A program made the translations under genes and the position numbers. Positions 12,022 to 54,606 of a DNA stretch of 64,000 nucleotides are shown here, one piece after another. The notes under the pieces are model-generated. The model saw nothing but the letters and a program-made list of their open reading frames with translations. It was not told where the DNA came from and did not search any database. Numbering within the stretch: position 1 is the stretch's first letter; every line of letters begins with the position of its first letter. The stretch is from IMG/VR virus record IMGVR_UViG_3300037296_000220, positions 1 through 64,000 of that record, one strand, 5' to 3'. This DNA is from a virus.

Positions 12022-12081
12022 TTAGTTGTTTGTGTGAGCGTTCATAGTAGTGTTTTGCATCTGGCGAGTCTACTGCGGGGT
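12022..12081 (-). promoter_or_regulatory. Promoter module with CCCA-type box (12.0 kb operon)
   Basis: Minus strand: ACCCCG (12076-12081) and CAGTA, 26 bp, TACTAT (12044-12049), 7 bp, then the leader CACACAAACAACTAA (12022-12036), then the ATG at 12002. Confidence 0.7.
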
Positions 12082-12479
12082 TCGAGTGCCCGTGTGCGTG
12101 CCGGGTGAGCGCGGAGCGCGACTCCCGTCTCGTTGGGTGGGCTGTTGCGGAGTTTCGGCCTTGCCAGCGTTTGCTCAGGCGTCCTTGCCCGTCATCCCCG
12201 TGTGTTTGCGTGGGGTGTCCCTTGCGTCGCTCCTGCGGCCTTACAGGGCGTCCTGGCGGCAGAGCCCGAATTGAAGCCCTGCTGCCCTGCCCTCAGTGCC
12301 CGAAATGTGGCACTTCCAGCGTTTGCACCTTCCATTTCCTACCTGTCCCGGGGTGTGGACGATGTGGTGCGGTTTGGTTGCACGTTGCTGCGGGTATTGG
12401 TTGTTGTGAATGTAGCGGTAATACGGGTATTGAGTGTTTCGGCTCCGGCAAGTTGGCACCGCCCGGGCCACGCAGCATT
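12082..12479. other. G+C-rich intergenic DNA without a supported gene
   Basis: About 400 bp between the promoter at 12.04 kb and the palindrome at 12.48 kb. Frames are open on both strands, but their translations are low in complexity and none has a ribosome-binding site. I see no tRNA, no iteron and no clear terminator. Confidence 0.5.
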
Positions 12480-12522
12480 AGCAGTTTCTAAGATGATAAC
12501 GATTATCATATTAGAAACTGCT
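12480..12522. repeat. 43-bp near-perfect palindrome
   Basis: AGCAGTTTCTAA at 12480-12491 is mirrored by TTAGAAACTGCT at 12511-12522, and the inner part ATGATAA-CG-TTATCAT continues the symmetry with one asymmetry. Much A+T richer than its surroundings. It marks the border of the low-GC island. Confidence 0.8.
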
Positions 12523-12538
12523 GTATTAGTGCGTTGCA

Positions 12539-12560
12539 GAGCGCGCACTAATGCGCGCTC
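12539..12560. terminator. Hairpin behind the low-GC gene
   Basis: GAGCGCGC-actaat-GCGCGCTC; strong stem about 10 bp past the stop of the 181-aa gene, without a T-run. Confidence 0.5.
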
Positions 12561-12570
12561 ATTGTTGCAC

Positions 12571-13116
12571 TTAGTCGAACAGTGCAATCATTCGCTTGTA
12601 CAATGCTGAATCAGTCTTAAAAGTCATTGTCTGCGTAGACTTCTCATAATCAGCGACATCTAAGAACAAGCAGAAGCGTTTGAAGTAGTTCGCTTGTGTA
12701 TTCGTCTCGTGACTCATAGCGCGCTGTAAAGCGTCGATGCTGATAGATTCAGCATTGTTTACGACGATGACTGTCAGAGCGTTCAGTAATGCTTTATCGA
12801 GCTTGTTCTTGTCAGTCGCAGCAATCGCGTTCAGCGCGCTCATAAGACGCTTTTTCAATTCACGCGACTGATTAACAATTGATTCAGCGTTCAGCTTGAA
12901 CGTGTAGCACACTGCTAGTGCGTCACTGCTCAGCTCTGACAGTTTGCTGTCGTATTTAGCGTGCGTCGCAGAGCGCTGTTGAGCGCGCTTCACGTCTGTG
13001 TCTTTAGTCTCTTCGTACTGACTAGCGAACTGCTCAGAGCGTGTCAGATTGTCACTAGCAGACTGTGACACAGTAGCAGAGAAAGAAGAGATAAAATCAG
13101 TCTTTTTAATAGTCAT
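12571..13116 (-). CDS. Ser/Asp-rich helical protein of a low-GC island, 181 aa
   Basis: 181 residues, mostly helical and polar: FSATVSQSASDNLTRSEQF, KLSELSSDALAVCYTFKLNAESI, ELKKRLMSALNAIAAT. The gene uses A/T-ending codons and alternates AGC/GCG-type patterns unlike its neighbours. It has a perfect sigma-70 promoter rather than the CA-leader module. I recognise no family. Composition and promoter type suggest a later arrival than the surrounding genes. Confidence 0.75.
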   Translation of the reverse strand: MTIKKTDFISSFSATVSQSASDNLTRSEQFASQYEETKDTDVKRAQQRSATHAKYDSKLSELSSDALAVCYTFKLNAESIVNQSRELKKRLMSALNAIAATDKNKLDKALLNALTVIVVNNAESISIDALQRAMSHETNTQANYFKRFCLFLDVADYEKSTQTMTFKTDSALYKRMIALFD

Positions 13117-13191
13117 GATAAGTCATCCTAAAACAGTGCAAGTGTGCGACTTGCTTCGCGTTGATTCGCTGCGTTGCGATTCAATAAGTTC

Positions 13192-13220
13192 ATAATAAAG
13201 TCTATGTCGCACACTGTCAA
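13192..13220 (-). promoter_or_regulatory. Consensus sigma-70 promoter of the 181-aa gene
   Basis: Minus strand: TTGACA (13215-13220), 17 bp, TATTAT (13192-13197). The spacer contains CGACATAG, one arm of the CTATGT dyad found nearby. Confidence 0.85.
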
Positions 13221-13283
13221 ACAAAGTTGTAAGTTTGTTTATATCGCTTTCGCATAGAACGCACGTTCTATATCGGTTTATGT

Positions 13284-13324
13284 TCTATGTAACATAGTGA
13301 CTTTATTAATAGAAAGCGTACTAT
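13284..13324 (+). promoter_or_regulatory. Promoter and dyad of the 97-aa gene
   Basis: GTGACT (13297-13302), 16 bp, TACTAT (13319-13324). The inverted repeat CTATGT-A-ACATAG (13285-13297) overlaps the -35. A CA-rich leader (ACACACACAAACGAAAGCGAG) precedes the ATG at 13359. Confidence 0.55.
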
Positions 13325-13358
13325 ATACGTACACACACAAACGAAAGCGAGTCACATA

Positions 13359-13652
13359 ATGAAAGCTCTTGAGATTGTACGCACTGAACGCGCAGACAAA
13401 GCAGCACGCTACACAGTGCGCGCTATCGTGCGCGACTCTAACAGCGCTCTGAAAGTCGCAACGTTCAATGCACGCATTGCGCAAGATTCCAACTATCACT
13501 TGACCAGCTTCGTTTACAGCGAGTCGCGAAAGCTCCGCGCTATCGCTAAAGCATTCGATCAAGACCGCTTGAACGATTTTTTGATGACTGTTGAACAGTT
13601 GCTTTTTAGAGCGTACCGCTCAGACACTGAACGACAATTGTCCGCATTCTGA
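13359..13652 (+). CDS. Small basic protein of the low-GC island, 97 aa
   Basis: 97 residues, divergent from the 181-aa gene and similar in base composition (many GCGC and ACGC words). Sequence: KALEIVRTERADKAARYTVRAIVRDSNSALKVATFNARIAQDSNYHLTSF, then a helical tail. Unknown family. The two genes share a promoter region with repeated CTATGT/ACATAG dyads, so they are probably controlled together. Confidence 0.7.
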   Translation: MKALEIVRTERADKAARYTVRAIVRDSNSALKVATFNARIAQDSNYHLTSFVYSESRKLRAIAKAFDQDRLNDFLMTVEQLLFRAYRSDTERQLSAF

Positions 13653-13673
13653 TAAACGAGAATGACCCGCGAA

Positions 13674-13710
13674 AGCGAAAAAAGTGCAATAAAAGCGCTT
13701 TTTTCGCTTG
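13674..13710 (+). terminator. Hairpin with T-run after the 97-aa gene
   Basis: AGCGAAAAAAGTGC pairs with GCGCTTTTTTCGCT across an A-rich loop; the second arm carries six T. Confidence 0.65.
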
Positions 13711-13915
13711 ACCTAAAAGTCTATGTGACATAGAATAGCTTTATTGAATCAGAGCGAGATTGAAATCAGCCAAAAACCGAATTTTGACAAGTCACCACGG
13801 CACGCACGCAACCGCGAGTGAAAACCGCTCCTGCGCCGCATTCCTGGCCATTCCCGTTTCCGCTCGCCGTTTCGAGGCCGCGGCACTACCACCCTTATTA
13901 CTTCGGTGCCTTATA

Positions 13916-14003
13916 CCTATAGCCGCTCCTATAGGAAAAACCCGCGGCTCCCCGCCCTATGGCGTACCTTGGGCCGTTTCCTATGGCGGCCCCTATAGGA
14001 AAA
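13916..14003 (+). repeat. Two copies of a 24-bp CCTAT...CCTATAGGAAAA repeat
   Basis: Copies at 13916-13939 and 13980-14003 differ at few positions (CCTATAGCCGCT versus CCTATGGCGGCC, each followed by CCTATAGGAAAA). A third copy follows the stop of the gene at 15900. Confidence 0.8.
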
Positions 14004-14128
14004 CCCCAGGCCGTTCCCTATGGCCGCTTACTGGCAAACCATGGTGTCCCGGGTGCACTGAACCCATGGGCTCACCACGGCTGCAGATCCCCTTGGCCCC
14101 ACCAGGGCTTTTCTTCAGGCAAAAAGAA

Positions 14129-14983: not shown

Positions 14984-15229
14984 TTACAGCAGGGACGCTT
15001 GCTCTTCCCAGAACGCTTGCTCTTCGAGCGGTTCAAACTGCATGTTTTGCAGCATGTCCCAGGCCATCTCTTTCTCGGCCTCGATCTGACGCTGACGGTC
15101 TTCCCAGACTGTGTCTTCATCCCACTCTTTGGCCCAGTGCTCGATGTCGTCCTGGCGATCCTCTTCTTCAGCATCAAACTGAGCGGTCAGGTAGTCCAGG
15201 TCGCGGGTTTCGTTGTATTGAATGGTCAT
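14984..15229 (-). CDS. Acidic Trp/Gln-rich helical protein, 81 aa
   Basis: 81 residues from MTIQYNETRD (the longer frame starts inside the leader). Very acidic and helical: LTAQFDAEEEDRQDDIEHWAKEWDEDTVWEDRQRQIEAEKEMAWDML. Such DNA-mimic-like acidity occurs in anti-restriction and other phage host-takeover proteins, but no specific family is recognised. Monocistronic, with its own promoter module and terminator. Confidence 0.7.
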   Translation of the reverse strand: MTIQYNETRDLDYLTAQFDAEEEDRQDDIEHWAKEWDEDTVWEDRQRQIEAEKEMAWDMLQNMQFEPLEEQAFWEEQASLL

Positions 15230-15245: not shown

Positions 15246-15298
15246 CTTGTGTGTAAGTACACTCTAAGCAGCTGACAGAGGCACTTCTACTGTGGCAA
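15246..15298 (-). promoter_or_regulatory. Promoter module with TGCCA box (81-aa gene)
   Basis: Minus strand: TTGCCA (15293-15298) with CAGTA, 26 bp, TAGAGT (15261-15266), then a short CA leader ending ACACACAAGC. Confidence 0.7.
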
Positions 15299-15328
15299 CA
15301 GGTTCACCAGTGCGACACCAGGCTGAAG

Positions 15329-15404: not shown

Positions 15405-15587
15405 TTACTTCAGACGCTTCAGTTCATCCTGGTACGACTGCTGAGCGGGGCTCAGTGTTGCGGTGTATGTGCTGCGCACTTTCGGCTTTTTCTTAGGTGG
15501 CAGCACAGTGATCTGACCGCCCCAGTTGCTGCTCTGCTGCTCTATAGCGTCGTGTTCTGCGTTGCGTGTGTTTTGCATGATGCTCAT
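15405..15587 (-). CDS. Small protein, paralogue of the gene at 14639 (60 aa)
   Basis: 60 residues: MSIMQNTRNAEHDAIEQQ, then ITVLPPKKKPKV, then TATLSPAQQSYQDELKRLK. About half of the aligned positions match the 66-aa protein encoded 0.8 kb away. Duplication of both gene and promoter region is evident, with the unrelated acidic gene between them. Function unknown. Confidence 0.75.
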   Translation of the reverse strand: MSIMQNTRNAEHDAIEQQSSNWGGQITVLPPKKKPKVRSTYTATLSPAQQSYQDELKRLK

Positions 15588-15619: not shown

Positions 15620-15687
15620 CTTGTGTGTGATGTCTCAATCGACAGACACATGATGACAAGCGCTGAGAGGCGTCTCTACTGTGGCAA
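15620..15687 (-). promoter_or_regulatory. Promoter module with TGCCA box (60-aa gene)
   Basis: Minus strand: TTGCCA (15682-15687) with CAGTA, 26 bp, CATCAT (15650-15655), about 21 bp, then ATCACACACAAGC. The arrangement around the -10 (CATGTGTCT...GTCGAT) resembles that at 29.1 kb. Confidence 0.65.
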
Positions 15688-15706
15688 CTGGCGAGCCAGA
15701 CAGCAG

Positions 15707-16466: not shown

Positions 16467-16960
16467 GAGTCAATGTCCTCTATTGCTGCTGTGAGGCTGG
16501 ACCGCTGATGAAAGGCGTGCTCTGCCACCTCTTTCATACGGTTGTAATCCATTGTCGGCAACAGCTCGATGGCTTCATCCAGGCGGGCTATGGCGCTGAC
16601 CCACTGCTTCTGGGGTGGGATGTCGTTGCTGTTGCTGTCTACAGACCATTCACCTGAGAACAGAAAGTCCCAGATACAGCCACTCTCTTTCGCACCCAGC
16701 ACCTGCGCTACAAATTTACGCGGAGCTAGCTTCAGAGGGTTCAGCTCAGGATTCAGGCAGGCATGGCCAATCACACAAGCGGTGCTACCACAAGGGAACG
16801 CTTTACCGTTCCAGGAATTGATATAGTTCTGGTTGTGTCGTTGTCGCACACCACTAAAGAAGGTGCCGATGTGAAACTGCTCATGGTTCACTTGCTCAGC
16901 CAGGAACGTTCGCAACCACTTCAGGTTCTTGATGTTCACCTTATGTGCGCCCATGCTCAT
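16457..16960 (-). CDS. FPCGSTACV-motif protein, 167 aa (paralogue of 15900)
   Basis: 167 residues: LRTFLAEQVNHEQFHIG at the start, FPCGSTACVIGHACLNPELNP in the middle, then WDFLFSGEWSVDSNSNDIPP and IARLDEAIELL. Clear tandem duplicate of the following gene, with strong divergence outside the CGSTACV and SEW/GEW blocks. Function unknown. Confidence 0.75.
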   Translation of the reverse strand: MSMGAHKVNIKNLKWLRTFLAEQVNHEQFHIGTFFSGVRQRHNQNYINSWNGKAFPCGSTACVIGHACLNPELNPLKLAPRKFVAQVLGAKESGCIWDFLFSGEWSVDSNSNDIPPQKQWVSAIARLDEAIELLPTMDYNRMKEVAEHAFHQRSSLTAAIEDIDSCQ

Positions 16961-17178
16961 GAGGTCACCTCACTCGGGACAGTCGTCAAACCGTTGTGAC
17001 GCAGGTCATTGAGAAACAGAAAGTTCTCGACCTGGTCCTGATCCCAGTCGGTCACAATCTCCAGGGCCTTTGGCTCTTCGTGAATCACGGGAATGGCCCG
17101 CTTGCCACTCAGCCCACCCATGACCAACTCTTTGTCGACCTTGTGGGCGAACTCAATACGGTGTCGCTGCATCTTCAT
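16957..17178 (-). CDS. Unknown protein, 73 aa
   Basis: 73 residues, first gene of the operon, coupled to the next by ATGA. Sequence HRIEFAHKVDKELVMGGLSGKRAIPVIHEEPKALEIVTDWDQDQVENF; basic N-terminus, acidic end. No family recognised. Confidence 0.65.
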   Translation of the reverse strand: MKMQRHRIEFAHKVDKELVMGGLSGKRAIPVIHEEPKALEIVTDWDQDQVENFLFLNDLRHNGLTTVPSEVTS

Positions 17179-17186: not shown

Positions 17187-17249
17187 CACTTACTTGTTTG
17201 TGTGTTTAGAGAGTATCGCAGCACACATGAGGCACTGCAACACTGGGTC
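17187..17249 (-). promoter_or_regulatory. Promoter module with CCCA box (17.2 kb operon)
   Basis: Minus strand: GACCCA (17244-17249), 26 bp, GATACT (17212-17217), 7 bp, leader CACACAAACAAGTAAGTGAG (17185-17204). The box is inside the 3' end region of the next gene's downstream DNA. Confidence 0.65.
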
Positions 17250-17255
17250 GCGCTT

Positions 17256-17618
17256 TTACTCTGGCACCCACTCACCCACCTTATGCACCAACTGATGCAG
17301 CTGACCCACTGTCATCGTGGCTGGGAGTGTGTCGCCGTTACTGTACTTGTACCCGGTCACAATCAATGTCCCGATCAATACGCTGGCCAATGTATCTGCG
17401 ATCCAGCTCACCTGAAACAGGGGCGAGCCTTCTTCAGCGGTGAACATCGCGTCATCGTCTGCCCAGACACAGTGATCATTCCCAATGTAGCCTGCCCCGG
17501 TCACAGTCTGGCAGCCGATCTCCTGGTACAGGGAGGTCAACACCTCGTCCGGGTTCAGCTCCACCTCTACCACCTGAGTGGGCTCACCCGGCTCTGCCAT
17601 GATCTTTAACGCTCGCAT
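17256..17618 (-). CDS. DUF3846-like protein, 120 aa
   Basis: 120 residues from MRALKIMAEP, after GGAGAG; the much longer open frame upstream runs through the promoter and palindromes and is rejected. The pattern VEVELNPDEVLTSLYQEIGCQTVTGAGY, then DDDAMFTAEEGSPLFQVSWIAD, then LIGTLIVTGYK matches the DUF3846 layout as I remember it (small proteins of phages and mobile elements, function unknown). Monocistronic. Confidence 0.75.
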   Translation of the reverse strand: MRALKIMAEPGEPTQVVEVELNPDEVLTSLYQEIGCQTVTGAGYIGNDHCVWADDDAMFTAEEGSPLFQVSWIADTLASVLIGTLIVTGYKYSNGDTLPATMTVGQLHQLVHKVGEWVPE

Positions 17619-17708: not shown

Positions 17709-17746
17709 AGTATAAATCAGTGAAACTGGGGTAGATACGTTGGGAA
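17709..17746 (-). promoter_or_regulatory. Promoter module with CCCA box (DUF3846-like gene)
   Basis: Minus strand: TTCCCA (17741-17746), 26 bp including TATCTACC, TATACT (17709-17714). The leader is longer (about 90 bp) and lacks the usual CA-rich start. Confidence 0.6.
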
Positions 17747-17769
17747 ATGGGGCACCGATCGAGTGACAG

Positions 17770-20574: not shown

Positions 20575-20780
20575 AGTTTCCAGTCTCGTGTCACATAGGC
20601 AAACAGTATCTCTTCGCGGCTTTGCATCCAGGCGATCTGGCCATTCTTCATGACCCCCACCCCAATCGGATTGTAGCCATCGTCGTCCATCACTACTTCA
20701 GCCGAGCACTGACCGGTTATCTCACCATGAACTATGGTGAACATACGCAGCAGCTTCTGCTCTTCCGTCATCTGGGTCAT
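20571..20780 (-). CDS. Unknown protein, 69 aa
   Basis: 69 residues: EEQKLLRMFTIVHGEITGQCSAEVVMDDDGYNPIGVGVMKNGQIAWMQSREEILFAYV. Beta-rich centre. Coupled upstream and downstream by ATGA overlaps. Confidence 0.65.
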   Translation of the reverse strand: MTQMTEEQKLLRMFTIVHGEITGQCSAEVVMDDDGYNPIGVGVMKNGQIAWMQSREEILFAYVTRDWKL

Positions 20781-21012
20781 ACAGCCACCCTCACCCGCTC
20801 TCTGATGTTGTCCAGCGAAGCCTGGCCCAGCCGGCCATTGTCACCTTTCTCCATCAGATACTTGGTGTTGACCTGTATCACCTCCCCCTTGCAGTAGGGG
20901 AAGGTGCCTTTGTCCACCTGACACTGCGCTTTGCAGTAGCCATCTTCTTGCCACCAAAACTGCGGTATGACCCGGACCCGGACATTGCCAGGCGTACGAA
21001 ATAGATGCTCAT
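20777..21012 (-). CDS. Small Cys-containing protein whose start is out of frame
   Basis: The only ATG after the promoter leader (21010-21012) opens a frame MSIYFVR that soon reads as non-protein-like. One base back, a frame of about 77 codons reads FRTPGNVRVRVIPQF, WWQEDGYCKAQCQVDKG, TFPYCKGEVIQVNTKYLM and ends in VRVAV with a stop that overlaps the next start (ATGA). That frame has no ATG, GTG or TTG near its beginning, and a TGA stands 15 bases before it. A -1 shift within the first five codons, a non-standard start, or an indel would join them. As the first gene of a nine-gene operon its integrity matters. Confidence 0.55.
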
Positions 21013-21020: not shown

Positions 21021-21083
21021 CACTTAGTTGTCTGTGTGTTAAGCAATCATACGACGCTCGCACTGGAGCGTCTACTGTGGGGT
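21021..21083 (-). promoter_or_regulatory. Promoter module with CCCA box (21.0 kb operon)
   Basis: Minus strand: ACCCCA (21078-21083) with CAGTA, 26 bp, TATGAT (21046-21051), 7 bp, leader CACACAGACAACTAAGTG (21021-21038), then the ATG at 21012. Confidence 0.75.
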
Positions 21084-21139
21084 CAGGGGATTAGAGTGTC
21101 GCCGAAAGTGTCTGAGCGCTCGTCAGAGCGCTTCCCAGT

Positions 21140-21917: not shown

Positions 21918-22562
21918 TTAGTCCAGAAACTGAGCGACCCAGAAGTCGTCTGCGTTACGGAAAGCGGCGATCATTTCCAGGTCACCAGGTGTGTGATCAG
22001 TCCAAATCTTGACAGCCTCTACTTTTGCCAATTGATCCAGGACAGCCATTTCTTCCGTTAGGTCATAGTGCCCACGACCCGGTTTGGCGTTTACCTGGAC
22101 ACAGATGGTCGGGCACTCAGTAGACATTTCTGACCGCAACACCACCACGATCGGTTCTGGCATCACTGGTGTGTACTCTTCTGGCTCAGCCTGTACCTCA
22201 CCCTCTTTGGTGACGCTCAGGAAGTTTGCGCCGCCGGGTCGCATACTTCGCATAACCTCGAACGCCTGCTGTGCGGCGTCTTCTCGACTGGTTGCGCTCG
22301 TCTCGTATTCCCAGACTATGGTGTATTCGTAAGCCTCCGGCTCCACCAGAGACAACTTCTTCTGTTCCTGAAGGATGTAGGCCCAGATACGGTTCATGCG
22401 ATCGGAATAGCTGAGTGTCCAGTAATCATCGTCGAAAAACTCAATAGCCAGTTCGCCGTCACGAGCACCAAGCAGCTCTTGAATGGAGTTGATGGTCTCG
22501 TTGAACAGCTCGCTTTCGACCGTCCGAATGGCGGCCTGCCCTACCAGTTGCTTCAGGTTCAT
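21918..22562 (-). CDS. Unknown protein, 214 aa
   Basis: 214 residues. N-terminal helical part (VGQAAIRTVESELFNETINSIQELLG), then EYTIVWEYETSATSREDAAQQAFEVMRS, a small alpha/beta domain, then TICVQVNAKPGRGHYDLTEEMAVLDQLAK. No family recognised. Coupled by ATGA to the first gene of the operon. Confidence 0.65.
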   Translation of the reverse strand: MNLKQLVGQAAIRTVESELFNETINSIQELLGARDGELAIEFFDDDYWTLSYSDRMNRIWAYILQEQKKLSLVEPEAYEYTIVWEYETSATSREDAAQQAFEVMRSMRPGGANFLSVTKEGEVQAEPEEYTPVMPEPIVVVLRSEMSTECPTICVQVNAKPGRGHYDLTEEMAVLDQLAKVEAVKIWTDHTPGDLEMIAAFRNADDFWVAQFLD

Positions 22563-22930
22563 GCTGCCTCTCCCTTTACTGTAAGGCCGTAACTGTGCGC
22601 AATTTGTTTCAGTTCATGCTGCCAGTATTTGACATGGCTGTAGTCGTGGACGTTCTGAACCTCTTTCATTAACTCCAGGTCCACCTCAGCCAGGCTGTAG
22701 TCTTCAAATTTCTCGCACAGAACGCCATGAAGGTCATTGATGCCAGTTTCATCATCGTCATCAGCAAACTTAGCCTGCTTTTCGGTCAAAAAGTGGCCAA
22801 TGAAACAGGATTGCCCCTTTTGGTTACGATAAACGCAGTTGCCCTCGATGGCGCAGTAAATACCTTGCTTTGCGTACTCGATCAGTTCGTCCATGAACGA
22901 CTGGTCAGTGTGTTTTGGTGCCGCTTTCAT
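22559..22930 (-). CDS. Unknown protein, 123 aa
   Basis: 123 residues: FMDELIEYAKQGIYCAIEGNCVYRNQKGQSCFIGHFLTEKQAKFADDDDET. The C.IG....CVYR...G..C.IGH block looks related in style to the CGSTACVxGH proteins at 16 kb and may be a distant cousin. First gene of the operon. Confidence 0.65.
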   Translation of the reverse strand: MKAAPKHTDQSFMDELIEYAKQGIYCAIEGNCVYRNQKGQSCFIGHFLTEKQAKFADDDDETGINDLHGVLCEKFEDYSLAEVDLELMKEVQNVHDYSHVKYWQHELKQIAHSYGLTVKGEAA

Positions 22931-22937: not shown

Positions 22938-23000
22938 CACTTACTTGTTTGTGTGTAGTTGAATCATAGAGCTGCGCGCATGGGGAAGATACTGTGGCAA
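22938..23000 (-). promoter_or_regulatory. Promoter module with TGCCA box (22.9 kb operon)
   Basis: Minus strand: TTGCCA (22995-23000) with CAGTATCT, 26 bp, TATGAT (22963-22968), 7 bp, leader CACACAAACAAGTAAGTGAG (22936-22955). Confidence 0.75.
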
Positions 23001-23095
23001 CTGGTGAGCCGAATCTGTCTGTGAGCGCTTCAGAGCGTCGCCCAGTGTGAGACTGTCAGTTGCATCAGTGCTCAGCGGGAAACGCTGTGAAGCAC

Positions 23096-23404: not shown

Positions 23405-23505
23405 GCCATTCCCCCATTGGTTGACAGTCTAAATAAAAAAGTCGTCCACCTTGTATTAAACCAATATCAACCGGCCTATGTTACATACTTTTAGAGCCAT
23501 TTCTA

Positions 23506-25235: not shown

Positions 25236-25742
25236 TTATATCCAGCCACGTTCAGCGAAAGACACGATGCCGGGGTTGCCCACGACCAGGTGATCCAGTA
25301 CACGAACGTCAATAGCCTGGAGTTTGTCGATCAACTGTTCGGTGATGCGGCGATCACTTTGACTGGGCTCAGCCACCCCACTCGGGTGATTGTGATAGAT
25401 GACGATCGCCGCTGAGCCCTTCTTCAGACACTCATGGATCACTTCACGCGGGTAGACAGCAGAGCCATCAATCGTGCCGCGAAACAGCACTTCATCGGCA
25501 AGAATCTGGTGCTGATTGTCCAGGTGCAAGATGCCAAAGACTTCGTGATCGAGTTCGTTCAGGTGCAGTCGCAGGTAGTCGCGAGTCAGCTGAGGGCTGG
25601 TCAGTGATGAGCCTCGACGATGACGCCGTGCCAGTATCTTCTTGGCTTCTTCCACGATCCTGCGCTGTTCAGGACTCAAAGGGTCTTGGTGCATGTTGGG
25701 ACTCGTTAAGCAGTAGGGAGTGGTTGCTTCGTTGATGTTCAT
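25236..25742 (-). CDS. radC: RadC-family JAB/MPN domain protein
   Basis: 168 residues. The JAMM metal-site motif is complete: HNHPSGVAEPSQSD (His-x-His then Asp ten residues on), with the family's VYPREVIHECLKKGSAAIVIYHNHPSG context and VLDHLVVG further on. Plasmid and phage RadC-like proteins are common near anti-restriction genes; metal-dependent nuclease or protease activity has been proposed for the family but no DNA-repair role is established. First gene of its operon, behind a promoter module. Confidence 0.9.
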   Translation of the reverse strand: MNINEATTPYCLTSPNMHQDPLSPEQRRIVEEAKKILARRHRRGSSLTSPQLTRDYLRLHLNELDHEVFGILHLDNQHQILADEVLFRGTIDGSAVYPREVIHECLKKGSAAIVIYHNHPSGVAEPSQSDRRITEQLIDKLQAIDVRVLDHLVVGNPGIVSFAERGWI

Positions 25743-25751: not shown

Positions 25752-25814
25752 CACTTACTTGTTTGTGTGTAACTACACTATAACGAGCAGAGTGAGGCAC
25801 TTCAGCTGTGGCAC
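25752..25814 (-). promoter_or_regulatory. Promoter module with TGCCA box (RadC operon)
   Basis: Minus strand: GTGCCA (25809-25814), 26 bp, TATAGT (25777-25782), 7 bp, leader CACACAAACAAGTAAGTG (25752-25769). The box is one arm of a hairpin, GTGGC...GCCAC. Confidence 0.75.
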
Positions 25815-25838
25815 CCGGGGCGCCACTGTTGTACCAGG

Positions 25839-27454: not shown

Positions 27455-27759
27455 TACCACTGCCCCCATCCGAGTTGTTCCCGGGCCTGCTGGGCTTTCA
27501 GCGCCTTTTCACGCTTGCTCTCTTTAGCCTTGTTGTACCGGTCGGCACAGGACTCGCAGAACGTGTAAGTGCCCACCTCAAACAGTAGTGTGGCGTGGCT
27601 ACTTTTTGAGCACTTAGGCCCCTGACAGAACGTTGGCCGGTGGTTTGCATTCCGATCGGCAAAGATTTTCTTTAGCGCCTCTCGATTGATCTCCAGCTCT
27701 TGCATCACGCCGGGTTTCTTCAACTCTCTGATTGACTTTCGATTGCTACTAGCTGGCAC
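27454..27759 (-). CDS. Zinc-finger protein ending in LGWGQW, 101 aa
   Basis: Start placed at GTG (27757-27759) because GGAGGGG stands six bases before it; the ATG five codons upstream has no such site. CQGPKC and FCESC (about 44-75) form a likely Cys4 zinc ribbon; the C-terminal helix is basic (KAKESKREKALKAQQAREQ) and ends GWGQW. Nucleic-acid binding is plausible. Overlaps the upstream gene by 11 bases. Confidence 0.65.
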   Translation of the reverse strand: MPASSNRKSIRELKKPGVMQELEINREALKKIFADRNANHRPTFCQGPKCSKSSHATLLFEVGTYTFCESCADRYNKAKESKREKALKAQQAREQLGWGQW

Positions 27760-28069
27760 GACGCACCCCTCCATCTTTGATCAGGTTGGTGGTCAACGAT
27801 TTCACGATGTTGCGCAGCAGGTCTTCACTCAGTGGTGTCTCGCTGATTCTGAGCGCGGTGTAGAACGGATGAATGCGATTGCATGTTGCGATGTCAGCGA
27901 TCAGGTGCTGACGCTCGCTGAACCAGATGGACGTAGCCACACCGTTCTCATAACGCACCCGGACGTACTCGCCGTGCACCCTTAGATAGAGATACCAGTG
28001 AGAAGAATCATCCTGGGATTCGATGTAGGCGATGAACTCTGCCTGCTTTTCTGTTTTGACTATTGGCAT
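27749..28069 (-). CDS. Unknown protein, 106 aa
   Basis: 106 residues from MPIVKTEKQAEF; the longer frame runs into the leader. Contains SSHWYLYLRVHGEYVRVRYENGVATSIWFSERQ, a small beta sheet. First gene of the operon, behind the promoter module at 28.1 kb. Confidence 0.65.
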   Translation of the reverse strand: MPIVKTEKQAEFIAYIESQDDSSHWYLYLRVHGEYVRVRYENGVATSIWFSERQHLIADIATCNRIHPFYTALRISETPLSEDLLRNIVKSLTTNLIKDGGVRRAS

Positions 28070-28084: not shown

Positions 28085-28144
28085 GCTTGTTTGTGTGTAT
28101 GAACGCACTATATAGCAAACAAACAACTAAATGAACTATGGGAA
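28085..28144 (-). promoter_or_regulatory. Promoter module with CCCA box and double CA element
   Basis: Minus strand: TTCCCA (28139-28144), 26 bp, TATAGT (28107-28112), leader ACACACAAACAAG (28085-28097). The 26-bp spacer contains, on the opposite strand, a second copy of the CA element, CAAACAAACAACTAA (28116-28130), so CA elements flank the -10 in opposite orientation. Confidence 0.65.
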
Positions 28145-28251
28145 GCACTCTGTAGCGCTCTCACAGCGTTCGCCAGATCGCAGTCGAGTGAGTGCATCAC
28201 TTTTTAGAACTACGCTCACAGACGCACTCAGATACTTTTGGGAGAATGAAA

Positions 28252-28292: not shown

Positions 28293-29051
28293 TTACGCAG
28301 CCTGAGCGGGCATCAATGCCTTCAGCAGGGGGTTGTCCTTCTCCACCAACTGCATGGTACTCCCTGTTTTAGTGACCAGGCCCAGTGCCGGCAGAAGCTG
28401 GCTGATTTGGTGGGCTTGGCTGTTAGCCGTTCCCTGGCTGTAGGGTCGAGCGATGTAGGCCTCTTTTAGCTGAGCCACTGTCAGCTCCCCATTCGCAGCG
28501 AGCAAATCCATTGCCATCTGCGTGTAGTTGGACAACTTCTTGCCGGCGGTTGCCGCGTCGAAGATGTTGATCACTTTCTCCTTGACCTTTTTGGCCAGGT
28601 TGTCGAAGGCTTCAGCCTGAGTCTTGGCGGCAACCTGGTCGTCGGCGCCGAGCAGTGAGTAGTTCTGGCCGATCTTGGCCAGTACCGCTTCAGAGCAGGT
28701 AGAGAATGACTGTCGTGGCGTCGCAGTGCGTTTCGCAGCGGCTGTCTTTGCAGCAGCGGGCTTGGCCACAGTATCCGGGTCTACGGCTTCGGTCTTCGCC
28801 GAGTCTTCGATCATCGTTGCGCGGTTTTCGGCACGCTCAACGCTGGCTTCAGCTTCGGCCAGAGTTTCGTCGTCCGTTTCCAGCTCTTCTTCAGGTGGGG
28901 CATCTTCGACAGCGACTTCTTCATCCGGCATTTGAGCTTCTTCACCCAGGTCGTCTTCCACTTCAGCCATCATGGCCAACAGTTCGTCGTCATCCAGTTC
29001 GTCGCCCACTTGTTCTACTGCTTCACTTTGATTCAATTTTGACTTAGACAT
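28293..29051 (-). CDS. Protein with long acidic N-terminus, 252 aa
   Basis: 252 residues. Residues 15-75 are strongly acidic (DELDDDELLAMMAEVEDDLGEEAQMPDEE...), followed by an Ala/Lys/Thr linker (AKPAAAKTAAAKRTATPR) and a C-terminal domain with a winged-helix look (LLAANGELTVAQLKEAYIARPYSQGTANSQAHQISQLLPALGLV). The design (disordered acidic arm, histone-like linker, wHTH) suits a DNA-associated or polymerase-interacting protein; function unknown. Monocistronic with module promoter and terminator. Confidence 0.7.
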   Translation of the reverse strand: MSKSKLNQSEAVEQVGDELDDDELLAMMAEVEDDLGEEAQMPDEEVAVEDAPPEEELETDDETLAEAEASVERAENRATMIEDSAKTEAVDPDTVAKPAAAKTAAAKRTATPRQSFSTCSEAVLAKIGQNYSLLGADDQVAAKTQAEAFDNLAKKVKEKVINIFDAATAGKKLSNYTQMAMDLLAANGELTVAQLKEAYIARPYSQGTANSQAHQISQLLPALGLVTKTGSTMQLVEKDNPLLKALMPAQAA

Positions 29052-29061: not shown

Positions 29062-29138
29062 CACTTAGTTGTTTGTGTATGTCGTTGATCGACAAGACAC
29101 ATGATAGAGCAGCAGGAATGGGGAAGATACTGTGGGGG
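29062..29138 (-). promoter_or_regulatory. Promoter module with CCCA box (29.1 kb gene)
   Basis: Minus strand: CCCCCA (29133-29138) with CAGTATCT, 26 bp, TATCAT (29101-29106), 21 bp, then ACACAAACAACTAAGTGAG (29061-29079). Confidence 0.75.
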
Positions 29139-29192
29139 CTGGTGCGCCAGAGTGTCACCAAATCGAGCAATCGAGGAGGGTTTTCAGAATCG

Positions 29193-31398: not shown

Positions 31399-32112
31399 TT
31401 ACGCCACCTCTCCCTCTACTGTCTCAAACTCAGCGATTTCAGCTACGGCGCCTGCCTTAATGGTCTCAACCGTTTGCTGGACAATGTAGCGCAGGACTTC
31501 AGCAGACCAGTCTTCCATCAGCTCGTCGTCGACCAGCTCAGCCGGGTCTTTCATACCCAGGCACGTCAGGCCCGCGTCCTTTGTGCCGAACTTGCTGCCG
31601 TCAATCTGATCACCCAGGTGGACGATGTTCAACATGCCCAGATGGACCTGGTTGACGCCCTTATTGCCGATCAAGAAGTGGGTGAACTCAGGTCGAGCCG
31701 AGCCCAGTGAAACCGGTTGTCCGTCGTAGGTCAGCTCTTCAGCCAGCTCACGCGCTACCGTGCGCAGGTAGGTGGCGGGCTGATCCAGGGCGCCGTTGAA
31801 GTCATAAACGATGTCCGGGGCATCAATGTGGCCACCCAGGCCGATTGACTTCTTGCCGTGCAGCTTGCTCTCGCCGCCTTTACTGGTGCGCTGCATACAC
31901 AGCACCTGGCCATCCTTCATAAAGATGGTGTAGGGCAGGATCTGGCGGAACGCTGGGCTGTTCTCCAGCATTTCGCGCTGGCCAATCATCATCAACTGGT
32001 TCGGCAGCGGCTGGATAGCGTTGTCGACCCGGTGCATCATGATGCGATCACCGATGTTTTCAGGGGTTTTGATGGCACTAGCGTGGATGCAAAGGATAAA
32101 TTCAGGTTTCAT
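31399..32112 (-). CDS. Nudix-like hydrolase
   Basis: 237 residues. IGLGGHIDAPD (about 91-101) and later ATYLRTVARELAEELTYDG (about 113-131) give the Nudix box pattern (GG...REL.EE) with an insertion between the first glycines and REL. The surrounding beta strands (YTIFMKDGQVLCMQRTSKG) fit the Nudix fold. Nucleotide-pool cleaning or regulation is plausible. Ends one base before the kinase gene. Confidence 0.75.
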   Translation of the reverse strand: MKPEFILCIHASAIKTPENIGDRIMMHRVDNAIQPLPNQLMMIGQREMLENSPAFRQILPYTIFMKDGQVLCMQRTSKGGESKLHGKKSIGLGGHIDAPDIVYDFNGALDQPATYLRTVARELAEELTYDGQPVSLGSARPEFTHFLIGNKGVNQVHLGMLNIVHLGDQIDGSKFGTKDAGLTCLGMKDPAELVDDELMEDWSAEVLRYIVQQTVETIKAGAVAEIAEFETVEGEVA

Positions 32113-37510: not shown

Positions 37511-37537
37511 ACTATACCACAGTTAGTTGTTTGTGTG
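37511..37537 (-). promoter_or_regulatory. nrdAB promoter with upstream CA element
   Basis: Minus strand: CACACAAACAACTAACTGTGG directly precedes TATAGT (37511-37516). No CCCA box at 26 bp; the CA element takes the -35 region. The leader includes a GGGGCCC...GCCCC stem. Confidence 0.55.
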
Positions 37538-45262: not shown

Positions 45263-45280
45263 TGATGTTCTCCGAAAATA

Positions 45281-50000: not shown

Positions 50001-50425
50001 GAGCCGATACCACCGGTTGTTATCACCACGTTGCCCAGGCTGTAGGTGTGTAGCACGTCCTCCCAGCATAACCGGGGCTGACCACTGCGAATGTGGGTAT
50101 CTTCGTAGGCTCTGGACAGTAGGCGAGTGACATCCTTGAACCCTTCATCGTTCATGATGTACAGGATAGGTGAAGTAAAGGTGTCTCGATTGGACTTGTC
50201 GTCGGTCTTCTCCCAATCCAGGTCGTCGACCACGTTTAAGCGAACGCCCATGATGACTTTCACATCACCGGCGTTCTGCGTGAGAATGGGTAAGGCGTTC
50301 AAGGTCATGTAATCGGCGACAGCCAGCGCTCTATACCCCTGCTCTTTGGCTACTGTAGCCAATTGCTTTGGGGATAAGATGCTGGCTTTGGTCGAGAAGT
50401 GCGTTTCAGCGCCAATGATGTTCAT
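47045..50425 (-). CDS. dnaE: DNA polymerase III alpha subunit (DnaE type) with UDG-like C-terminal domain
   Basis: 1126 residues. PHP domain at the N-terminus, degenerate (AETHFSTKASI instead of HSDYS). Polymerase palm: VGPGRGSVGGS (374-384), PDIDLDF (416-422, two catalytic Asp) and KLDVLGL (565-571, third Asp). Fingers and beta-binding region follow. From about 974 the sequence changes character and resembles a family 4-type uracil-DNA glycosylase: NPRVMVIYDNGN, DLYQTALIKANKTKDMPEDY, SLKREIELLNPAVVLIMGTKARNYLLP, GINPNMCFF. The glycosylase motifs are altered (no GEAPG, Asn for the C-terminal His), so it is probably inactive. Proofreading should come from the DnaQ-like protein. Confidence 0.93.
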   Translation of the reverse strand: MNIIGAETHFSTKASILSPKQLATVAKEQGYRALAVADYMTLNALPILTQNAGDVKVIMGVRLNVVDDLDWEKTDDKSNRDTFTSPILYIMNDEGFKDVTRLLSRAYEDTHIRSGQPRLCWEDVLHTYSLGNVVITTGGIGSIFAHDQREAIIDRIENAIGNDTERFYIECPYADSLYYRQVSKRALNSAQMRSRKVLVSRPTLYAEGMADSRNIMANILNFNTRLDSPFAAAGGSDMGILGRKDGIMKFKKWVHMMKGDGFIDVPGAELLNKAYVHSNGPWADQFSYKWEKMDVSLPSLAANPSAAMTKLCVQGWKERIDKPFLGYKPDVSLIPQYKDRLKRELTILKDMGFEDYFLLVHDLVSWSKQQGIIVGPGRGSVGGSIVAFLMGITDVDPIRFNLFFERFINPERLDLPDIDLDFMSSRLGEVYNYLSDRYGKERVAKISNYGVLGSSSALRSVAKSLGYTEAEMKVAKRIPSNHGQPVSLEEAIEQVPELKDFAKRDPVLFGNAIKLQKVFRNYGVHAAGVIVADTELSNRAIVEKRGENQVINWDKRSCEEFGLVKLDVLGLSTLDLLRLAKDYIKEQDKEDLDYTTIPLEDPEVLKAFGLGETLGVFQFESGGMRGLLRELAENDPLTFEDLSACNALFRPGPLDSGLTDNFKAIKRGYMSPTYPHDSMIPALESTYSVIVYQEQVMQVARDLAGFSMAQADHLRKAMGKKDAEQMAKVRDSWVAGCKSHSQMEETEAAGLFDIIEKFAGYGFNKSHSVEYAIIAFWAMWLKVYKPEAFFAAALTILGEDKRMGLVKDAERRGVYVMPPDVNISTSRFEIGYDSNRKRRVIYAPFQMVKGLTQNASEHIMECREKAGGSFTSFAHFLENITNKRYVNKRIQSMLDDIGVFAGIENQDDPLHPTRLKSQKAAMPGIMLAAVKADRKLDLQPHVIDELSKEVEKYSMKAENELAIEISLAPRLGKNPRVMVIYDNGNFKDEKMGKIGEGDYADFILPGFKAAGYKRSDLYQTALIKANKTKDMPEDYVSEMIRVYGPSLKREIELLNPAVVLIMGTKARNYLLPEVQGGFEQLAGQVEYDHGQDTSYVIGINPNMCFFDDSRRELIDEAVAQVVDILD

Positions 50426-50930
50426 AATACACCCTGTTTTTGTCTCGTTTGATGATGCCTGACGCCTCTAAAATGTTGAGTGCCCGGCCTATTCTGTTCT
50501 CTGCCGTTCGGATCGACAGCGTGTACTGGTCTGCAAAGCTCCCGGTCAGCTTATTCACGGTAGTCCCCGCCTCATTCAGATGGAGAATTGCAAAGTCGAG
50601 ACCCGTGTCGACCCCCGTAGTGCGACGCTCAGCAATGACAGCCGGAATACTGACACCCTTCTGATTCAACCGTCTTGCGAGAGGCTGCGCTTTGCGCGAA
50701 ACCTTCGTTAAATCAATAAGTTGGCTCAAGTATGCGCTGGACATTTTGGGCAACTTGTTGACGCTGGACGACACAGAGACGGTCGTACTGATGATCGTGG
50801 CTGATTGAGAACAGGTATCAGCGCATCGAGTCTGGACTTTGCAGGCCTGACACGCTTCACTATCCCGACTGCAACAGATCAATGACCCGAAGCAGCCGGG
50901 TTCATCAGTTCCCCAGTTGGATTTGGACAT
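50406..50930 (-). CDS. Cys-cluster plus winged-helix protein, 174 aa
   Basis: N-terminus CFGSLICCSRDSEACQACKVQTRCADTC contains seven or eight Cys in 28 residues, a likely zinc or Fe-S site of the kind seen in phage regulatory proteins (GCFGS....C..C.....C). The C-terminal 75 residues form a winged helix (NKLTGSFADQYTLSIRTAENRIGRALNILEASGIIKRDKNRVYY). A DNA-binding regulator or replication-initiation helper; overlaps both neighbours. Confidence 0.75.
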   Translation of the reverse strand: MSKSNWGTDEPGCFGSLICCSRDSEACQACKVQTRCADTCSQSATIISTTVSVSSSVNKLPKMSSAYLSQLIDLTKVSRKAQPLARRLNQKGVSIPAVIAERRTTGVDTGLDFAILHLNEAGTTVNKLTGSFADQYTLSIRTAENRIGRALNILEASGIIKRDKNRVYYEHHWR

Positions 50931-52068
50931 ACTTCATCACCGCATCGCGTTCATCACTGGGTAAACGGTTGGCGTAGGCCAACTCGAAGCCTTTGACGAA
51001 TGAGCCCTTCATGACGCCGATCTGCGCAATGCGGATCAGCACTCGGTTACCAATGGTTAGCGAGTATTCATCAGGGTTTTCGCGCACCTTTTTGGCAATC
51101 GCAATCAACGACTTGGCGTCTTTCTCTTCGAGGCCCACAGCCAGGTTCAACATGGTTATTTCCTGGCTCTCTGCCAGATAACCCTTCTTCATGACGACGC
51201 CGAAGCGCTCGATCGTGGCGGCATCTTGCTGAAAGGTGGATTGAAAGCGCTCTCCCCCATCACCTGAGCCGTTCGTGTTGCCAGTGGCGACGAAGCGGAA
51301 CATCGGGTGCGGGTCAATGCGCTGATATTGAGGCGGCGCATCGGGGATGATCAGCGGTTGACCTTCAAGCACAGCCTGATAGACAGACAGCACTGATGGG
51401 TGGCAGCGATCGTATTCGTCAGCCAGAAACACTTCGCCGTTGATCATCGCCAGTGGCAATGGCCCCAGCTCGAAGTCGGTCACAGAGATGGCATTACCTC
51501 CTTCATCGCGCTCAGCCCGGGCGATCTGACGGCCTACAATCTGCGACTCTTCCAGGTTGGCTGTGTGTTGAAGACGGCGCAGGCGACGGTTGGTTGCGGC
51601 ACAGAATTGGCGATATTCAGTCGTTTTACCGACGCCGGCTTCGCCGTAGATATAGATTGGAATGTTGCGCTCCATACCCATCGCGACGGTCTTCACTTCT
51701 TCCAGGTCGGAAATGATCAACTCGTCGAAGTCGGGCACATTGGCATCAGTTTCACGTTCATCGCGGGTCAACATGATGGGTTGGCCATTGCCGTACTGCG
51801 TCTTTTTGCTGTTGCGCAGGCGATAGGCTTTATGCAGCTCTATCTTGTTGTCGGGCGTTGCGACCTCTTCAGGCTCAGCAAGGGCAGTTTTAGCAGCCAT
51901 TCGCTTCTGAACTTCCTGGCGTGCAAAATCAGAAATGGTCGGCGCGTCCGGGTATTGCTCGCTGTATTCTTCGAGGGTCAAGCTGTGAGCTTCGTCACTC
52001 ATTTTCGCCAGGTGAGTCTTGATAACGTGCACCTTCTCACCGCAAATCTGACAAGTAATCTTTTCCAT
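50905..52068 (-). CDS. MoxR/CobS-like AAA ATPase
   Basis: 387 residues. N-terminal zinc finger MEKITCQICGEKVHVIKTHL; Walker A GEAGVGKTT (142-150); Walker B VFLADEYD (213-220); sensor GNTNGSGDGGERFQ. The arrangement follows CobS (cobaltochelatase small subunit) and related MoxR ATPases. It precedes a VWA protein in a compact locus, but no chelatase large subunit is present, so a chaperone or remodelling role with the VWA partner is more likely than cobalamin synthesis. Confidence 0.87.
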   Translation of the reverse strand: MEKITCQICGEKVHVIKTHLAKMSDEAHSLTLEEYSEQYPDAPTISDFARQEVQKRMAAKTALAEPEEVATPDNKIELHKAYRLRNSKKTQYGNGQPIMLTRDERETDANVPDFDELIISDLEEVKTVAMGMERNIPIYIYGEAGVGKTTEYRQFCAATNRRLRRLQHTANLEESQIVGRQIARAERDEGGNAISVTDFELGPLPLAMINGEVFLADEYDRCHPSVLSVYQAVLEGQPLIIPDAPPQYQRIDPHPMFRFVATGNTNGSGDGGERFQSTFQQDAATIERFGVVMKKGYLAESQEITMLNLAVGLEEKDAKSLIAIAKKVRENPDEYSLTIGNRVLIRIAQIGVMKGSFVKGFELAYANRLPSDERDAVMKYVQIQLGN

Positions 52069-52089
52069 TCTGTCGAACTCCTGAAAACC

Positions 52090-52152
52090 TAGTTAGTTGT
52101 TTGTGTGTTTTAAAATAGTATCGCATTAGTTCAATGCGATACACAATGGGGT
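52090..52152 (-). promoter_or_regulatory. Promoter module with CCCA box (AAA ATPase operon)
   Basis: Minus strand: ACCCCA (52147-52152), 26 bp, TACTAT (52115-52120), 7 bp, leader CACACAAACAACTAACT (52091-52107). The box lies three bases beyond the stop of the VWA gene. TATCGCATTGAACTAATGCGATA in the spacer is an inverted repeat. Confidence 0.75.
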
Positions 52153-52154
52153 GA

Positions 52155-54554
52155 CTATTTAAGCATGTCGCCAACGTGACGAATTAGGCTGCCGCCCAAC
52201 TGTTCAATGTTGTGCAGTACCTCATAGTTCTTGTAGTACCGCGACACTGAGTTGTCCTTAATGCCAATGCTGGACACGGAAATGTCTTCCTTTTCCAGTT
52301 GTTTCAGGGCGTATTGCATGGCTGTGGGGTAAGACATGCCTCCACCGTTGCCGTAGGCGGGGTTACCATCTGACAGCACGATCAATCCCTTCTTGGAGGT
52401 TTCCTGGGTCATTAGCATGTCGCGAGCGGCCAGCAGAGCGTCCGGGTCTGCATTGCCTCCGTTGATAGGTATTTCAATGTGCCAGTCAGCGATGCGACGC
52501 TTGGCTGTTAAGCCCCAGCGTTCGTCAAACCCCTTGAAGATGGGGTGAAATACCTCCCCATAGCGGCTGAACTGGCCGGCGCCAGAGCTGTAAACCTTAT
52601 GCATTTTCTGTCGAGCTACTTCGATAGCCTGCTGAGAAGGCATCTGACGATGGTCCTCCAAAACGTCCGAGCTTGGTAGTGCCGTCGCAAATCCCATGAT
52701 TGCAAAGTTCACCTTGACGGCACTCAAGGACTCGGCCATTGCATAAGCCGCCTGAAAAGCCAGCTTGTACTTGCTCGACAATTCCATAGACCCACTGTTA
52801 TCGATCAGTAATAGAATGGACGCGCCCTGACGCTCAACGATTCGACGTTTGCGGAATACCCGCTCTTCGCCCAATGACAGCCGGGCTATTGCGGTCGGAT
52901 TCAGTCGGCCTGAGCGTTGCCCGGCTTCCCAAGACTTCTTTTCCATAGAGCGCAGATAGCGGATTAAAGAGCGAGACACCTGACCTGTCATGCCGCCAGT
53001 GGACTTCTCAATCTCAGCCATTGACTTGGCGAGTCTGTCCTGAGAATGAACTGGTTTCACCTTCGCCTGAAGATCGCCGGCTGTTGAATACGGCGTGTAG
53101 ACTGAGCCAGAATCACCCTCTCTGAACTGGTCCGCGATCATTTCTTCCAGCATGTCATCGAAGTCTTCCACATTGGCTTCGTTTTCATCCATCCCCAGAG
53201 CTACGCCAAACCCTTCATTGTTGTTTTCTTCGTCATCGCCAGCTTCTTCGTCTGGGAACTCACCATCTGACGCTTCGTCATTGGTGCCAGAGGCCGAATT
53301 GGAACCGTCATCTTCTTCCTCTTCATCGTCACCCAGTTCGTCACTGGAGCCGGCGGCTTCGGCATCGTCATCATCTTCTCCAGGGTCAGATTCGCCACCA
53401 GGCTCGCCGCTGGCGTCATCATCGGCCCCTTCGGCTTCAGATTCACCGGCGCCCTCTCCATCTCCAGCGTCATCATCCCCAGGTTCATCATCGTCATCAT
53501 CGTCCGATTCTGATACATCCTCCCCAGCGTCGTCGCTGTCCGGGTCATCGTCTGATTCAGCTCCCTCATCTTCTCCGCCGTCATCAGACTCGCTATCGCC
53601 ATCCTCCTCATGTGACCCGTCGCCATCATCGTCGCCATCATCGGAGGTATCATCTGATTCAGGCTCTTTTGCTGCGCCATCGCCAGACTCAGACCCTTCT
53701 GATTCACCGCTGTCATCTGGTTCATCTGGTTGCTCCTGCCCGTTTGACCCCTGTTCAGATAGGTCTTCTTGAAATGTCTCGGCGTCGTCATTGTCACCAG
53801 CTTGATCGCTGTCTTCCGATTCACCTGCGTCACCGTCTGATTCAGGTCTTGGGTCGCGATTGGGCTTGGTGAAGAACTTGGAGTAAGCCAACTGGGTCAG
53901 TCGTAGAACGTCCCAACTGTTTTTGCATTCACTGATCCGACGACTAAAGTCCAAGTCGTCGAGCGCTGTCATAAGCCACTCAGTTTCCGCTTTGTAGTGC
54001 TCTTCTATATAGTCAGCGACTGTTTTTTGGCCCGCCTTAGCGCGACAGCAAGCAGTGATGAGGCGGTTGAATGCTTGCGACTTCTTGGTGAGGTCAGTCT
54101 GGTCTTTCTCGATACCGGCCGTGATAATGTCAGTCAACCAAATCTCCCGGGTCCGATCCAGCTCCTTGAAGCCGCCAGCAAAGTCTTCCTCGCCCCGTAT
54201 CTCGATGTAGCAGTCTTCAATGGCATTGTTTAACCCGCCGAAAACCTCAGATTTGGACTGAGCCTCAAGTGTGGCAGCGGGGTCTGTGTACAGGATGTGA
54301 CAGCACTCATGCAGCAGAAAGCCGATGATGGCGTAGCAGAACTTAGCAGAGCATTGGTCTGGCACAACAGGCAAGTTGACGAACTTAGCCTCATGCGTGA
54401 GCCCATCCCATTGAACATAAGCCTGGGCGCCAACGTGATACACAGGGATCTTTGAGTCGGTGATTAACCGTGCGACCTTTTGAGACATGCCCCGAGTGGA
54501 TTGGATTAGGCGCTTACTCGCTTGTGGAGCTGACATAAAGAGTTCCTTACTCAC
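52155..54554 (-). CDS. CobT-like VWA protein with a very acidic central region
   Basis: 799 residues. HECCH (82-86) in IGFLLHECCHILYTDPA fits a zincin-like HExxH helix as in VWA-domain metallopeptidase-like proteins. Residues about 235-465 are almost entirely Asp, Glu, Ser, Gly (with short repeats such as DDDGDG and ESDD). The C-terminal VWA domain has the MIDAS motif DNSGSM (585-590) and later SDGNPAYG. This is the CobT/MoxR-partner layout. With the AAA protein it may remodel a host or virus target. The acidic stretch creates long but meaningless open frames on the other strand. Confidence 0.85.
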   Translation of the reverse strand: MSKELFMSAPQASKRLIQSTRGMSQKVARLITDSKIPVYHVGAQAYVQWDGLTHEAKFVNLPVVPDQCSAKFCYAIIGFLLHECCHILYTDPAATLEAQSKSEVFGGLNNAIEDCYIEIRGEEDFAGGFKELDRTREIWLTDIITAGIEKDQTDLTKKSQAFNRLITACCRAKAGQKTVADYIEEHYKAETEWLMTALDDLDFSRRISECKNSWDVLRLTQLAYSKFFTKPNRDPRPESDGDAGESEDSDQAGDNDDAETFQEDLSEQGSNGQEQPDEPDDSGESEGSESGDGAAKEPESDDTSDDGDDDGDGSHEEDGDSESDDGGEDEGAESDDDPDSDDAGEDVSESDDDDDDEPGDDDAGDGEGAGESEAEGADDDASGEPGGESDPGEDDDDAEAAGSSDELGDDEEEEDDGSNSASGTNDEASDGEFPDEEAGDDEENNNEGFGVALGMDENEANVEDFDDMLEEMIADQFREGDSGSVYTPYSTAGDLQAKVKPVHSQDRLAKSMAEIEKSTGGMTGQVSRSLIRYLRSMEKKSWEAGQRSGRLNPTAIARLSLGEERVFRKRRIVERQGASILLLIDNSGSMELSSKYKLAFQAAYAMAESLSAVKVNFAIMGFATALPSSDVLEDHRQMPSQQAIEVARQKMHKVYSSGAGQFSRYGEVFHPIFKGFDERWGLTAKRRIADWHIEIPINGGNADPDALLAARDMLMTQETSKKGLIVLSDGNPAYGNGGGMSYPTAMQYALKQLEKEDISVSSIGIKDNSVSRYYKNYEVLHNIEQLGGSLIRHVGDMLK

Positions 54555-54606
54555 TTAGTAGTTTGTGTATTATAAGCGCATAAGAAAGGGCGCGACAGCG
54601 TGGGAG
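54551..54606 (-). promoter_or_regulatory. Promoter module with CCCA box (VWA gene)
   Basis: Minus strand: CTCCCA (54601-54606), 26 bp, consensus TATAAT (54569-54574), immediately followed by ACACAAACTACTAAGTGAG (54550-54568). Confidence 0.75.

Follow-up and report, generated by a model that had tools for sequence, protein, structure and literature searches.

The record is a virus of 102,534 bp. The window referred to throughout is the whole stretch of 64,000 nucleotides at its start (the first 64 kb). The gene content includes CobS/CobT-like genes, ParA, ParB and a plasmid RPA replication protein (Rep). The DnaE-type polymerase is 43% identical to the DnaE of Pseudomonas phage nickie, and 37-43% identical to those of nickie, SSU5 and others. 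The record shares its DnaE-type polymerase, CobS/CobT-like, capsid and tail genes with the SSU5 supergroup and with Nickievirus. These shared core genes, together with genes for plasmid replication and partition, identify it as a phage-plasmid of the SSU5 supergroup. Scans of viral_contigs with the single DnaE and RPA sequences returned zero relatives. No transcription programme for SSU5-supergroup phages or phage-plasmids was found in the literature searched.

Some other genes in the window are worth listing. There is a dihydrofolate reductase gene at 7877-8359 on the plus strand (Pfam DHFR_1, E 1e-49), with a glutaredoxin gene close by at 6912-7175. A serine resolvase gene at 3793-4389 on the minus strand (Pfam Resolvase) would suit a plasmid-like element that resolves its multimers. 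A gene for a Cys-cluster protein (50406-50930, minus strand) is flanked by CobS and the polymerase; the N-terminal CFG...C..C....C motif of this protein recurs at the corresponding locus of hairong and of Acinetobacter.

The first-pass annotation had proposed twelve promoter regions on the minus strand, and all twelve are where it placed them. They are listed below with the elements in reading order, followed by the position of the first base of the -10.

54569-54617, minus: box promoter of the CobT-like gene 52155-54554; GCCCA, TCCCA, GCCCT, then TATAAT; 54574
52115-52163, minus: weak box promoter of the CobS-like gene 50905-52068; CCCCA-N26-TACTAT, without a proximal CC; 52120
29101-29149, minus: strongest box promoter, gene 28293-29051; CACCAG, CCCCACAGTA, CCCCA, then TATCAT; 29106
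28107-28155, minus: box promoter of 27749-28069; TCCCATAGT-N26-TATAGT, without a proximal CC; 28112
25777-25825, minus: box promoter of 25236-25742; TGCCACAG, TGCCT, then TATAGT; 25782
22963-23011, minus: box promoter of 22559-22930; CACCAG, TGCCACAGTA, CCCCA, then TATGAT; 22968
21046-21094, minus: box promoter of the 20777-20917 operon; CCCCACAGTA, CTCCA, then TATGAT; 21051
17709-17757, minus: box promoter of 17256-17618; CCCCA, TCCCAACGTA, CCCCA, then TATACT; 17714
17212-17260, minus: box promoter of 16957-17178; ACCCA, TGCCT, then GATACT (a poor -10); 17217
15650-15698, minus: box promoter of 15405-15587; CGCCAG, TGCCACAGTA, CGCCT, then CATCAT (a poor -10); 15655
15261-15309, minus: box promoter of 14984-15229; TGCCACAGTA, TGCCT, then TAGAGT; 15266
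12044-12092, minus: box promoter of 11442-12002; CCCCGCAGTA, CGCCA, then TACTAT; 12049

The element consists of two direct TSCCW half-sites, often three, which flank the -35 position. Counted from the first base of the -10, the distal half-site covers -31 to -27 and the proximal one -17 to -13, and about two thirds of the sites have a third near -37. Relative to the predicted start this corresponds to roughly -42 to -39, -28 to -25 and near -49. The half-sites are 14 bp apart in all nine of the record's own promoters that have a proximal CC. Sites 52.1 and 28.1 have no proximal half-site, and the spacer of the 28107-28155 promoter contains a reversed copy of ACAAACAACTAA.

This is somewhat different from the single box and invariant 26 bp that had been described. 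The distance is real, but 26 bp is only the value of this lineage (it is 22 in virulent relatives), and the box is really two or three half-sites. Where a CCA had been given for 12.0, the site reads CCCCG. An extension of CCA into CAGTA had been claimed for seven promoters; CCACAGTA is exact in five of these, while 12.0 has CCGCAGTA and 25.8 has CCACAGCT. A TATNAT-like -10 was said to be present throughout, but is poor at 15.65 and 17.2.

The reported lack of TTGACA at the -35 position is borne out. The best matches, at spacers of 16-18, agree at 2-4 of 6 bases in the 12 own sites, and at no more than 4 of 6 if the 69 promoters from the clade are added. As in activator-dependent sigma70 promoters of the class II type, the box is followed at a constant distance by a recognisable -10, and the -35 hexamer is poor or absent.

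The fixed gap stands out against other gaps, shuffled DNA and coding sequence. The pattern YSCCA-N26-TANNNT occurs 8 times upstream of genes, against 0-2 times for each other gap from 16 to 37. The shorter SCCA, followed by 26 bp and a -10, is present in 11 of 69 upstream regions, or 10 after dropping one terminator coincidence; any other gap yields at most 5, as do 500 dinucleotide shuffles at any gap. Coding sequence does not carry the pattern equally often either. At -10-like words, SCCA at gap 26 is found in 11 of 177 intergenic cases versus 4 of 352 coding ones. The match at 45280, a terminator hairpin with TTTATTTT after it, was discarded as a promoter. One additional SCCA-26 site, at 65350, lies beyond the window.

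Leave-one-out scoring of the 49-bp element places 11 of the 12 sites in the top 26 of some 205,000 positions, the exception being the weak 52.1 site at rank 596. The signal sits in the box and the -10; the 11 bp preceding the -10 are signal-free. The specific form CCACAGTA-N6-CC-N13-TATNNT occurs 3 times in the window and 0 times in 100 shuffles. Within IMG/VR, the exact box-26 pattern was found in 30 contigs with a single match apiece, which looks like chance in a collection of such size. The leader ACACACAAACAASTAAGTGAG had 0 matches in viral_contigs.

Relatives have the half-sites too. When four-letter words were counted without bias at each gap ahead of a -10, the same half-sites emerged in nickie, hairong and ZY21. 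There SCCA is at gap 22, with the proximal half-site unchanged at gap 12-13. In other words, the gap in Nickievirus is 22 because the half-sites are 10 bp apart. Given a proximal CC, this 10-bp spacing is seen in 11/14 cases in nickie, 8/14 in hairong and 10/14 in ZY21. Five further viral contigs (G001-G005) were fetched with the family of a candidate protein encoded at 12571-13116, described below. Here the 10-bp pattern is clear in three and weak in two: 12/16 in G002, 10/12 in G003, 5/12 in G001, 3/9 in G005 and 1/2 in G004, a 48-kb fragment. Both G004 and G005 have the candidate gene and few sites.

Supergroup members from SSU5, Shinella, Acinetobacter, Aeromonas, Cupriavidus and Stenotrophomonas differ from the record in lacking half-site promoters; the pattern was found 0 times in ANB28, SSU5, Cupriavidus, Aeromonas, Acinetobacter and Shinella, none of which has the candidate protein. 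The record's position weight matrix found no strong matches in nine relatives, because their spacing differs. One orthologous promoter (65350 in the record, and its counterparts in nickie, ZY21, G002 and G003) has its distal half-site at gap 26 in both lineages, so both spacings can coexist.

In nickie the sites are confined to the non-structural half of the genome. The same goes for the record, with 65350 as the one weak exception. The earlier suggestion of an activator-type architecture near -41, without a -35, is supported, and the architecture keeps to non-structural operons. The box-carrying relatives are virulent, by prediction or observation, and the sites are therefore not simply an immunity operator.

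In the Nickie clade, an inverted repeat with 6-12 bp arms often encloses the -10 in its loop. This holds for 20 of 65 box promoters, where about 1.4 would be expected. Examples are nickie 47618, 71592 and 87489, ZY21 84154 and G002 12494, among others. The arms vary between promoters yet remain complementary.

Every gene of the record was compared with 14 relatives. Since five of these had been fetched with the 12571 protein, the unbiased comparison is that of nickie, hairong and ZY21 against six genomes. Only three genes are present in box genomes and absent from the other six: the glutaredoxin at 6912, a probable NUDIX hydrolase at 31399 (assigned by a motif in its sequence) and 12571-13116. 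The Cys-cluster gene at 50406 follows this pattern weakly. The gene of most interest and its promoter are:

12571-13116, minus: candidate activator, 181 aa, helical hairpin at the N-terminus and winged helix at the C-terminus
13192-13220, minus: canonical sigma70 promoter of the candidate activator gene, TTGACA-17-TATTAT

The 181-aa protein has no match above cut-off in Pfam, PHROGs or NCBIfam, and no member of its family was found in bacterial genomes, plasmids or PDB sequences. An AlphaFold2 model, made with seven homologues, has a pLDDT of 92.8 and predicts a long helical hairpin plus a C-terminal H-E-H-H-E-E-H winged helix. Foldseek returns weak matches to the winged helices of MarR, ArsR, IclR and SarA; the best PDB E-value is 0.1, and none is below 0.001. 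The putative recognition helix TQAxYFK is invariant across all seven homologues, which is what an unchanged half-site with altered spacing alone would predict. A profile search gave no match between 12571 and 28293, and they were rejected as paralogues.

The promoter at 13220-13192 is the record's best canonical sigma70 match. Those of the Nickievirus homologues are near-canonical, with TTGCAC-16-TAGAAT or TATACT. Inside the 13.2-kb promoter there is an ACATAG half-site, and 65 bp upstream of it a CTATGTAACATAG palindrome. These motifs suggest that in the phage-plasmid the activator gene may itself be under a separate repressor.

The first-pass annotation had put forward other regulators, and these fare less well. 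Neither 8840 nor 55059 has a homologue in Nickieviruses, which carry the same half-sites. For 50406 there are only weak Nickievirus matches, and positional counterparts exist in lineages without boxes. The 12571-13116 protein is a better fit than any of the three.

The record contains other motifs as well. A second promoter class has ACAAACAACTAAGTKTGG adjoining a TATAWT -10, and is found at structural genes and ribonucleotide reductase (minus strand 9926-9943 and 37517-37534 in the window; 70234, 75536, 87274 and 97655, minus, in the record). This 14-mer is also the 5' leader of the box promoters, fused to the Shine-Dalgarno. Palindromes occupy the same place beside the -10 in the SSU5 group, in the forms ATAAGTAAG..CTTACTTAT, AGTCAGTACTGACT, TTCAGTAAATGCTTACT and CTAACT-N4-AGTTAG. 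They come from SSU5 (L039-L044), the Shinella (L069-L074), Acinetobacter (L057-L062) and Aeromonas (L051-L056) plasmids, and G005 (L102-L107), and may be an operator, or a late activator site, common to the supergroup. A further palindrome, CTATGTWACATAG, is located at 13285-13297, 13721-13733, 3501-3513, 23476-23488 and 62796-62808. One copy is exact and four have one mismatch, with 0 in 100 shuffles. Some stand at canonical promoters, and a repressor operator is a possible role.

Promoters of a similar design are known. At the lambda CII promoters PRE, PI and PaQ (and with P22 C1), a phage activator reads TTGC-N6-TTGC, a direct repeat with a 10-bp period. These half-sites flank the -35 position; a -10 is present and the -35 is poor. 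The Nickievirus half-sites share both the period and the placement, while in the record the distance is 14 bp instead of 10. The half-site itself is TSCCW and not TTGC, and about a dozen operons are involved here, compared to three. The candidate has no CII family match in Pfam, PHROGs or NCBIfam, and with its predicted winged helix and helical hairpin it is not a CII homologue. Virulent relatives use the design too, so it is not a lysogeny switch.

T4 MotA/AsiA had been offered as the comparison. It does resemble the present case in that many operons, probably a middle regulon, have a -10 and a phage box for the -35 function. In T4 one MotA box lies at about -30, against two or three half-sites between -50 and -24 in the record, the main ones at about -42 and -28. 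CII is the closer analogy: the half-sites stand on both sides of the -35 position, where T4 has one box in its place at -30.

Taken as a whole, the boxes quite probably define an activator-type regulon. If they do, there is a reasonable likelihood, somewhat lower, that the 12571-13116 protein is the binder. It is unlikely, though the least so among the alternatives, that the activator is another phage product, either the Cys-cluster protein 50406-50930 or a member of the 28293-29051 family. The former ends in a possible winged helix (a weak Pfam E2F_TDP match) and is weakly matched across the whole Nickie clade, and 28293 is itself downstream of the strongest box promoter. However, 28293 has homologues in 4 of 6 genomes without boxes, box-less Acinetobacter has a 50406-like Cys-cluster gene at the same locus, and neither gene has a canonical promoter among those listed. 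Less likely again is a host reader, be it an activator or an alternative sigma factor. All named phages that carry the candidate infect Pseudomonas syringae, and the sites at 15.3, 15.65, 23.0 and 25.8 resemble the sigma54 pattern GG-N10-GC. On inspection this -24/-12 pattern is present in just 4 of the 12 aligned sites, and a sigma54 promoter was rejected; the sigma54 model also gives no reason for a -10 at a constant distance. A reader encoded by the phage would moreover make it easier for a whole lineage to change its spacing between 10 and 14 bp.

Operators for a lysogeny repressor are scattered over many operons in plasmid-like and temperate phages, the asymmetric motifs of P1 C1 and the stoperators of mycobacteriophage L5 being known cases. 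The record, a phage-plasmid with an RPA-type Rep, ParAB and a two-HTH regulator at 8840-9739, also has a scattered asymmetric motif over its early promoters. That this motif is such an operator is nevertheless improbable, slightly more so than a host reader. The virulent relatives have the sites and lack homologues of 8840 and 55059, and CTATGTWACATAG and ACAAACAACTAAGT, other repeated motifs, look more operator-like. In addition, with the box exactly positioned against the -10 and no -35 present, the polymerase must be getting help from something. Finally, the fixed gap might merely reflect recent duplication of promoter cassettes, as CACAGTATCTTCCCCAT is common to 29.1 and 23.0. This is very improbable: the box and -10 are conserved, but positions -11 to -1 rank from 10,860 to 164,259 in leave-one-out scoring, with no conserved signal, and in relatives the half-sites persist, differently spaced, in orthologous and other promoters.

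The preferred reading, to which we assign a probability of about 0.55, is one of sigma70 promoters without a -35, served by a phage activator on pairs of TSCCW, most likely the 12571-13116 protein. Its own canonical promoter would supply this winged-helix protein as soon as the phage enters or is derepressed. As an immediate-early activator the protein would bind the two direct half-sites either side of the -35 position, with its C-terminal winged helix reading TSCCA and the polymerase kept at the -10. Like lambda CII, it would recruit or position sigma70 polymerase at promoters lacking a -35. Because the virulent Nickieviruses have no lysogeny to switch, its role would be in middle-gene expression, and the regulon, mostly small unknown genes plus the cobS/cobT-like pair, would be of the middle type. 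We infer both activation, as opposed to repression, and the identity of the protein. The co-occurrence of protein and boxes within the clade is confounded by ancestry, and shared descent explains part of it. It also counts against this reading that one protein could serve both 10-bp and 14-bp repeats only with a dimer that is flexible or has re-evolved, 14 bp not being a whole number of helical turns.

A wider version can be put forward tentatively, at somewhat less than even odds: a new family of activators (hairpin plus winged helix, on TSCCW repeats) would run the middle regulon in Nickieviruses and in this phage-plasmid, its spacing having shifted regulon-wide between 10 and 14 bp. Nearly the whole regulon would then have moved together in one lineage, tied to a change in one protein. 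If the finding holds, an activator, its site and its regulon are named together, and many unknown early genes gain an expression class. It would also be a natural case of a whole-regulon change in activator spacing.
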